From Sphingorhabdus sp. M41 (GTDB lineage Bacteria; Pseudomonadota; Alphaproteobacteria; Sphingomonadales; Sphingomonadaceae): a DNA stretch of 64,000 nucleotides. The stretch spans positions 1,824,501 to 1,888,500 of the forward strand of contig NZ_CP014545.1 in assembly GCF_001586275.1 (NCBI RefSeq), in the 5' to 3' direction. Shown one piece after another: positions 62,373 through 63,056 of the stretch. Each line of letters opens with the position of its first letter. Positions within the stretch are counted from its first letter, which is position 1. Both the position numbers and the translations under genes were made by a program. Under the pieces are notes generated by a model. That model was given only the letters and a program-made list of their open reading frames with translations, ran no database searches and was not told the origin of the DNA.

Positions 62373-62483
62373 AGCCCCTCCTCTTCAGAGGAGGGGTTGG
62401 GGTGGTGGCGATGTGTGAACATAGCTCGCGCAGCGACACGCGGCACCGAACCACCCCAACCCCTCCTTTAAAAAGGAGGGGCT
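62373..62483. repeat. 111-bp two-hairpin repeat R1, 5' of ligA
   Basis: Outer hairpin 1: AGCCCCTCCTCT, a short loop and AGAGGAGGGG; hairpin 2: CCCCTCCTTT-AA-AAAGGAGGGG at 62460-62481. Between them GGTTGGGGTGGTGG and CCACCCCAACC make a larger inverted repeat. It is a direct repeat of R3. On the minus strand hairpin 1 ends in CTTTTT just before the ligA ATG, looking like a terminator, and its stem holds the ligA Shine-Dalgarno. Confidence 0.9.
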
Positions 62484-62528
62484 GAAACAGGCTCGTTTGA
62501 TCGCAACCAGCGTTATTAAGGCACTGGC

Positions 62529-62939
62529 TCACTTAAGCCCCTCCTCTTCAGAGGAGGGGTTTGGGGTGGTGGAGGCACCACGCCCACCCCACCGATCCGG
62601 AGTACCTTCCAATATGCGCAACAAATCCGTCAAAACCCCGTCCATATTCCCCATCACATCCAAATTTGTAAAACGCACCGTCCGATATCCCTTTTCGCGC
62701 AATTGCCCATCGCGCTTGCAGTCGGAATCGATATCATGCGTATCACCATCTAGCTCAACAATCAGCTTTTTAAGCGGGCAAAAGAAGTCGGCGACAAAAT
62801 GGTCGATCACGGCCTGACGGCGGAATTTATGACCGCCCAGCTGCGAAGCGGAAAGTTGTCGCCAAAGCCGCTTTTCCGGTTCGGTCGGATTGCGCCGCAT
62901 CTCCCTAGCACGGGCAAGAAGAATGGCACGGTTGGTCAC
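62529..62939 (-). CDS. DUF559 endonuclease-like protein, copy 2, repeat-flanked
   Basis: 136 residues. PD-(D/E)XK-like motifs: MRRNPTEPEKRLWRQL, HFVADFFCPLKKL (Asp) and IVELDGDTHD (ExD), then a helical C-terminus to LLRILEG. The start is GTG at 62939, with AGGAGG from repeat R3 10 bp upstream. The last 15 residues ([15 protein letters not shown]) are translated from half-repeat R2, so the native C-terminus probably ended earlier. It lies between recN and ligA, which are normally adjacent. Role in mobility or repair is unknown. Confidence 0.87.
   Translation of the reverse strand: MTNRAILLARAREMRRNPTEPEKRLWRQLSASQLGGHKFRRQAVIDHFVADFFCPLKKLIVELDGDTHDIDSDCKRDGQLREKGYRTVRFTNLDVMGNMDGVLTDLLRILEGTPDRWGGRGASTTPNPSSEEEGLK
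62536..62572. repeat. Half-copy R2 of the two-hairpin repeat, overlapping the DUF559 3' end
   Basis: Carries hairpin 1 (AGCCCCTCCTCT...AGAGGAGGGG) and TTTGGGGTGGTGG, but no second hairpin. It codes the C-terminal tail of the DUF559 gene. Confidence 0.85.
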
Positions 62940-62945
62940 TGTTCT

Positions 62946-63056
62946 AGCCCCTCCTCTTCAGAGGAGGGGTTGGGGTGGTGGCGATGTGCAAACATCGCTC
63001 CCGCAGCGACATGCGGCGAGAAACCACCCCAACCCCTCCTTTAAAAAGGAGGGGCT
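62946..63056. repeat. 111-bp two-hairpin repeat R3, 5' of DUF559 copy 2
   Basis: Same length, outer arms and orientation as R1; the two differ by roughly 8-10 bases in the middle spacer. It lies 26 bp past the recN stop and 6 bp before the DUF559 GTG start, and provides its Shine-Dalgarno. Confidence 0.9.

Follow-up and report, generated by a model that had tools for sequence, protein, structure and literature searches.

The 64,000-nucleotide stretch of the Sphingorhabdus sp. M41 chromosome analyzed here (NZ_CP014545.1, positions 1,824,501 to 1,888,500; hereafter the window) carries, between recN and ligA, a gene for a DUF559 protein that lies among C/G-rich hairpin repeats (Table 1). In the repeat unit, a hairpin of ~22 bp (CCCCTCC..GGAGGGG) precedes a G-rich tail (TTGGGGTGG). 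Two complete two-hairpin repeats, R1 and R3, which resemble the doublets of repetitive extragenic palindromic (REP) elements known as REPINs, flank the gene; each is 111 nt long, and they are in direct orientation, 92% identical, and spaced 573 bp apart. Within each, the two tails point toward each other; R1 and R3 correspond to both ends of a gene-bearing unit joined without the gene (folding z = -9.5 for R1 and -10.7 for R3). An earlier note on this DNA, made from its letters alone, had described these direct repeats and a half-copy around a DUF559 gene, and our analysis confirms that description. The final ~13 codons of the gene are themselves sequence of the half-copy, with the stop codon (62529-62531) just beyond the repeat, and the residues they encode are part of a stretch (residues 118-136) that is disordered in the structure model.

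Table 1. Features of the window, in window coordinates.
Feature	Position	Strand	Remarks
DUF559 gene (EDxHD/Vsr-like endonuclease)	62529..62939	-	136 aa, GTG start; Pfam DUF559 E 5.5e-31
Terminal repeat at the 3' end of the unit ("half-copy")	62535..62572	+	single hairpin, tail toward gene
R3, two-hairpin repeat, REPIN-like, tails inward	62946..63056		5' end of the unit, directly upstream of the DUF559 start codon
R1, second two-hairpin repeat	62373..62483		between unit and ligA
ligA, flanking host gene	60026..62368	-	start placed at 62368
recN, 3' part, flanking host gene	63082..63999	-	continues beyond the window
Second DUF559 gene	43732..44130	+	132 aa; domain 43750-44061
Two-hairpin repeat, one-sided	44138..44235		immediately 3' of the second DUF559 gene

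The predicted fold of the window protein resembles those of a homing endonuclease and Vsr, and DUF559 has fold and profile kinship with the EDxHD homing endonuclease I-Bth0305I (3r3p). Both the catalytic-domain fold and the conserved acidic and histidine residues that characterize the EDxHD/Vsr superfamily are present. Five residues (E22, D51, E62, D64, and H68, window numbering) are conserved as E-D-E-D-H and are the predicted catalytic residues, an assignment made from the family and not by mapping onto solved structures. A DUF559-like protein of Neisseria gonorrhoeae, ngo0050, is represented in the PDB (3hrl).

The hairpin pattern has seven matches in the window (0 expected from 100 shuffles) and 35 in the 3.34-Mb genome, in which the reversed pattern has none. 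All three DUF559 matches of this genome adjoin two-hairpin repeats, and the third, located outside the window, is bracketed by repeats of a different sequence family. The comparison drawn in the earlier note with REP elements that have their own REP-associated tyrosine transposase (RAYT), except for a nuclease of another family, is apt as an analogy. The Y1/RAYT profile PF01797 has no match in the genome, which makes mobilization by a RAYT encoded there unlikely.

The hairpin-bracketed DUF559 gene is a general pattern. Among 59 Sphingomonadaceae genomes, one per genus, 53 contain DUF559 (133 matches); 105 matches were analyzed, most within 20-kb stretches, and the remaining 28 were domains in long open reading frames (ORFs), partial or low-scoring matches, or loci that were not retrieved. 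We scored bracketing by comparing the 350 bp upstream of a gene with the reverse complement of the 350 bp downstream, as this flank-against-flank comparison separated DUF559 genes well from controls, whereas a plain palindrome score did so poorly. Terminal inverted repeats, a criterion for insertion sequences, bracket 80 of the 105 DUF559 genes but only 4 of 1274 control ORFs from the same stretches (Fisher 9e-102), which bears out the enrichment near such repeats on which the earlier note had made its idea of mobility depend. The inverted score was reached by none of 441 small control ORFs and by none of 525 shuffled DUF559 flanks. Direct repeats across the gene occur at 43/105 DUF559 genes versus 3/1274 controls, and when control windows were shifted 75 bp into the ORFs, 7/1281 were inverted and 9/1281 direct. 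Furthermore, hairpins with arms of at least 9 are present within 250 bp on both sides of 42 of the 81 genes with either kind of bracketing, compared to 5 of 1281 controls. Direct bracketing, as described in the earlier note, is true of R1 and R3, because complete two-hairpin repeats flank the gene on both sides here, but the usual arrangement elsewhere is an inverted pair around the gene.

A typical unit consists of an outer hairpin, an inward G-rich tail, the DUF559 gene, and again tail and hairpin. Of 78 units, 68 have the inner repeat edge no more than 62 bp upstream of the domain, and 72 have it no more than 61 bp downstream; the C-termini of many DUF559 proteins are therefore translated repeat, which is why so many end in "HPNPSPxGEG" or "GPPPRAGE"; the stop codon of many units falls within or beside the 3' repeat. 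In the flanks that were inspected by eye, a stop codon often lies close on one side of the unit and the next start codon close on the other. Inspection by eye of R1, R3, and the unit ends revealed neither a GTAG foot at the hairpin nor a CGTC foot, the stems being of the C/G-rich kind given above.

The pattern extends beyond the family. With 55 of 56 new loci used (L262, from the window's own family, was excluded), inverted or direct bracketing was found at 24/39 loci of other Alphaproteobacteria and 10/16 loci of other Pseudomonadota, counting best-scoring loci only. In the clade of the window protein, whose nearest named relative is from Parasphingorhabdus flavimaris (84% identity), suggesting Parasphingorhabdus as the probable genus of the window, 77 of 80 named loci are bracketed.

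The type of repeat goes with the nuclease. We mapped three repeat states (A, B, or none, with A as a residual class of bracketed genes without the B signature) onto a quick tree of the 105 DUF559 proteins, in which many forks are open. The states require 10 changes, compared to 44.6 when shuffled, and none of 200 shuffles was as low; all 28 B-type entries fall within one clade of 30 (Shimodaira-Hasegawa-like approximate likelihood ratio test, SH-aLRT, 99). Protein identity is correlated with repeat similarity (r 0.43, 0/999 permutations) over 78 of the 80 units, two of three near-duplicate copies in one genome (G045) having been excluded. Pairs from the same genome are not more alike than pairs from different genomes at similar protein identity, except for two same-genome pairs above 60%, which indicates that the repeat type follows the nuclease and not the host. 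Physical linkage explains part of this correlation. The repeats are, however, still alike at 40-60% protein identity, a distance at which unconstrained flanks would be expected to be unrecognizable.

The number of repeats likewise follows the gene. Two hairpin patterns have more than 1,400 matches across the 59 genomes, with up to 139 of one pattern in a single genome, and genomes with more bracketed genes also have more hairpins (rho 0.70; all 59 genomes included, 7 of which, with unexamined DUF559, were entered as zero). Median counts of the two patterns are 5 and 16 where bracketed genes are present (39 genomes), 0 and 1 where all are unbracketed (7 genomes), and 0 and 2 where the gene is absent (6 genomes); after subtraction of four hairpins per bracketed gene, the excess has a p of 0.03.

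We therefore interpret the block between recN and ligA, with a probability of roughly 0.6, as a gene-bearing copy of a system similar to REPtrons, in which a single-domain DUF559 endonuclease of the EDxHD/Vsr type replaces the HUH transposase. The nuclease would recognize the hairpin and tail of its own clade, probably in a single-stranded or cruciform form, and would nick or cut there. Through host repair or replication, the repeat, and occasionally the gene as well, might then be copied to another site, with no target duplication arising. The non-autonomous copies would be the REPINs, and direct REPIN pairs could recombine, dropping the gene and leaving a solo REPIN. Recognition, cutting, and copying by the DUF559 system are thus inferred steps.

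Variation at the junction of recN and ligA is in line with an insertion, as the earlier note had proposed from the usual adjacency of the two genes: the block is not present in all lineages. Of 32 congener genomes searched, 29 had a readable junction (L177-L205), with a DUF559 gene in 12, a two-hairpin repeat only in 2, genes abutting or at most 64 bp apart in 4, and other sequence without a DUF559 match in 11. In four genomes (G083, G087, G075, and G082), what lies between the stop of recN and the start of ligA is a plain unit composed of end, gene, and end, and recN and ligA abut without any insert in G062, G059, and G088. G080 contains a solo REPIN whose outer flanks nearly equal those of the cassette in G060, as expected if direct REPINs had recombined and lost the gene, or if the gene had entered a REPIN. 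On a tree of recN and ligA from the 29 species, DUF559 presence requires 10 changes versus a shuffled mean of 9.5 and is unclustered; on this weak tree, gain and loss cannot be told apart. Two further observations concern this junction. The recN-side hairpin in G060 (L183) has the appearance of a REPIN that lost the ~85 bp separating its hairpins, so that these are now fused loop to loop, as if cut at the tips. The junction is also an insertion hot spot, as 11 of 29 congeners have other inserts.

Signs of multiplication come from G045, in which three DUF559 copies encoding 92-98% identical proteins lie in unrelated places (L119, L120, and L127), suggesting that the gene can multiply. Homology between these copies extends ~40 and ~25 bp beyond the repeats (AGCGGACACTGC.. 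/ GTCCGCTAAGGGGCG), and the moved piece may therefore be larger than the unit. A search for empty copies with these short shared flanks in three 20-kb stretches gave nothing clear. The shared outer sequence is perhaps another repeat, serving as target or carrier.

Variability is also found in the association of the gene with its repeats. Neither inverted nor direct bracketing was detected at 24 of the 105 DUF559 genes, and 15 of these form a single clade (SH-aLRT 99), all 15 of which are located between sufB and sufC and lack repeats. Among the other nine, eight have a one-sided hairpin with an arm of at least 9, seven of them of the C/G-rich kind. Of 81 bracketed proteins, 77 retain all five E-D-E-D-H residues, as do 8 of these 9 unbracketed ones; in the sufB-sufC clade only 1 of 15 members does so, and the other 14 have lost three or four of the five. 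This clade is a putative domesticated form of DUF559, and its losses of the repeats and of the putative nuclease site coincide, albeit in this one clade. The location itself is shared with bracketed genes: in the window clade, 37 of the 80 named loci are between sufB and sufC, 36 of them bracketed and one (L345) just below the threshold, and at two further loci DUF559 adjoins sufC. Among 28 readable sufB-sufC junctions (30 loci retrieved out of 347 genomes), 9 are without DUF559, 17 have the gene in unbracketed form, and 2 have it with bracketing. One junction (L087, G019:C1:571818-572573) has tandem DUF559 domains, one bracketed and one of the suf-clade type.

Several observations qualify the reading as a repeat-propagating nuclease. 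No target duplication was found, the direct-repeat score outside the unit ends averaging 1.4 versus 1.2 in mismatched pairs, with ends defined by alignment only. Near-identical DUF559 copies are present in only one of the genomes examined, G045, and many loci are long-lived, as indicated by the 37 window-clade loci at sufB-sufC. The mobility suggested by the earlier note is favored by both of the checks it had proposed, the spacing of recN and ligA and the enrichment near repeats, but movement itself is, in view of these three observations, putative. In addition, G049 is an exception to the dependence of repeat number on the gene, with 77 hairpins but no DUF559 match, and the most divergent member of the sufB-sufC clade, G032, lacks repeats yet has kept the conserved residues.

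The absence of a target duplication, the long-term home site at sufB-sufC, and the kinship with I-Bth0305I would all suit a free-standing homing endonuclease that cuts an empty intergenic site and whose gene is copied by repair, with the repeats acting as recombination arms or terminators and not as substrates. We consider this unlikely, as it leaves unexplained both the large number of gene-less REPINs and the fact that repeat type tracks the nuclease clade across different loci; moreover, DUF559 lacks an extra DNA-binding region, unlike the phage EDxHD enzymes as passages of PMC3943268 present them. An even less probable explanation is that DUF559 is a passive neighbor, with another enzyme spreading the repeats, and repeats and DUF559 genes favoring the same stop/start junctions. 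The tight fit of many units between stop and start codons and the many kinds of insert that recN-ligA accepts (11/29 other) are consistent with such a shared preference, but the same stretches contain only 4 bracketed genes among 1274 neighbors, the window genome has no match to a Y1 transposase, the repeat type follows the nuclease clade, and it is the residue-poor sufB-sufC clade that has no repeats. Least likely of all is a Vsr-like mismatch nuclease serving host repair, as proposed for Caulobacter VsrA, with hairpins that control expression or insulate, since DUF559 is patchy (0-10 matches per genome), occurs as broken copies in the window's genus, and is accompanied by dispersed gene-less repeats.

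A related gene is present in 3 of 50,697 phage records and in 38 of the 72,556 records in a collection of plasmids, some of these hits being as large as chromosomes. Ten loci of the latter were analyzed, and five have an inverted score of at least 34: Sinorhizobium meliloti pSymB (208), D. proteolyticus (97), Sphingomonas parapaucimobilis (52), Deinococcus NW-56 (37), and Picosynechococcus (34). The gene separates sufB from sufC in S. parapaucimobilis. That of N. gonorrhoeae (L264) has a direct repeat only, with a score of 160, and neither kind of bracketing was found at the E. coli, Synechocystis, Photobacterium, and Azospirillum loci (4 of the 10). In E. coli, the DUF559 gene is ycjD, with sapF on one side and fabI on the other, and this stretch is covered to at least 80% in 3362 of 5426 genomes. 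The terminal repeats of ycjD are degenerate (score 19). A hairpin-and-tail repeat downstream of ycjD, which we presume may belong to the "box C" family, recurs between ypfG and tkt in some strains; among seven aligned ypfG-tkt sequences (L276, L387-L392), two have the ycjD-type repeat and five a different one (GTAGGCCGGATAAGACGC or near). A literature search on the "box C" identity gave nothing of relevance. The ypfG-tkt junction was thus rejected as a clean empty site. E. coli O157:H7 and O25b:H4 were likewise rejected as empty ycjD sites, as ycjD is absent after sapF there and other genes take its place.

Apart from the hairpins considered so far, the window genome contains dispersed repeats of a second family (TCTCGACTNCGCTCGANACGAACG), 25 half-units in all, which often come in pairs with a spacing of ~46 bp. 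Two insertions of this family lie within the open frame of ligA (window 60457-60562 and 61783-61852).

Taken further, the data raise a broader possibility, which we put forward tentatively and with less confidence than the reading of the block itself. A lone EDxHD/Vsr-type endonuclease of ~115-140 aa may be the sole enzyme needed to propagate repeats made of a hairpin and a G-rich tail. Its units of ~450-500 bp would then represent an unnamed, minimal class of mobile element, together with REPINs lacking the gene, which would form large families throughout Pseudomonadota; the ycjD-linked repeats of E. coli would probably belong here. Domestication would have occurred at least once, in the suf operon, accompanied by loss of repeats and nuclease residues. 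Within the open-licence literature in PubMed Central (PMC; titles, beginnings of abstracts, and passages, a scope that leaves aside most subscription papers and bioRxiv), we found no prior description of DUF559 with such repeats, and there is a real chance that the arrangement is a new class. A set of C/G-rich hairpin repeats would gain a candidate enzyme, from a family still listed in Pfam as of unknown function, and, if the interpretation is correct, repeat systems of the REP kind originated on at least two occasions, each with an enzyme unrelated to the other.

Comparison with known systems helps to place the DUF559 units. The stems in the window do not fit the definition of CGTC-type REPs given in passages of PMC3733652 (CGTC-tagged stems of 8-9 bp with A-T first pairs), a type for which Di Nocera et al. 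state there that no enzyme is known. The passages of PMC3943268 that describe I-Bth0305I present it as a protein of an intron that has extended DNA-binding regions, whereas the proteins studied here are free-standing single DUF559 domains between repeats. E. coli ycjD is similar in that it is a DUF559 gene with a nearby hairpin-and-tail repeat that is also found elsewhere in the genome, but differs in the degeneration of its own terminal repeats. TIRtrons, described in part of PMC3733652 as a RAYT-like gene with unrelated terminal inverted repeats, share a short gene between repeats that also occur elsewhere; their enzyme is a HUH tyrosine transposase and not an EDxHD/Vsr nuclease. The closest likeness is to REPtrons, the combination of REPs or bacterial interspersed mosaic elements (BIMEs) with TnpA-REP/RAYT. 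As far as the relevant passages of PMC8266576 and PMC3733652 go, these also comprise an enzyme gene flanked by palindromic repeats that are dispersed without the gene, both singly and in pairs; the number of repeats follows the presence of the enzyme; and the enzyme is mostly old and of low copy number. In contrast to the HUH tyrosine transposase of REPtrons, the DUF559 units have a PD-(D/E)XK-like nuclease of the EDxHD/Vsr type, no visible GTAG foot, a G-rich inward tail, and, in many cases, a stop codon in or beside the 3' repeat. With an unrelated enzyme and without a visible GTAG foot, the DUF559 system is not a member of the REPtrons, but a system that resembles them in organization.
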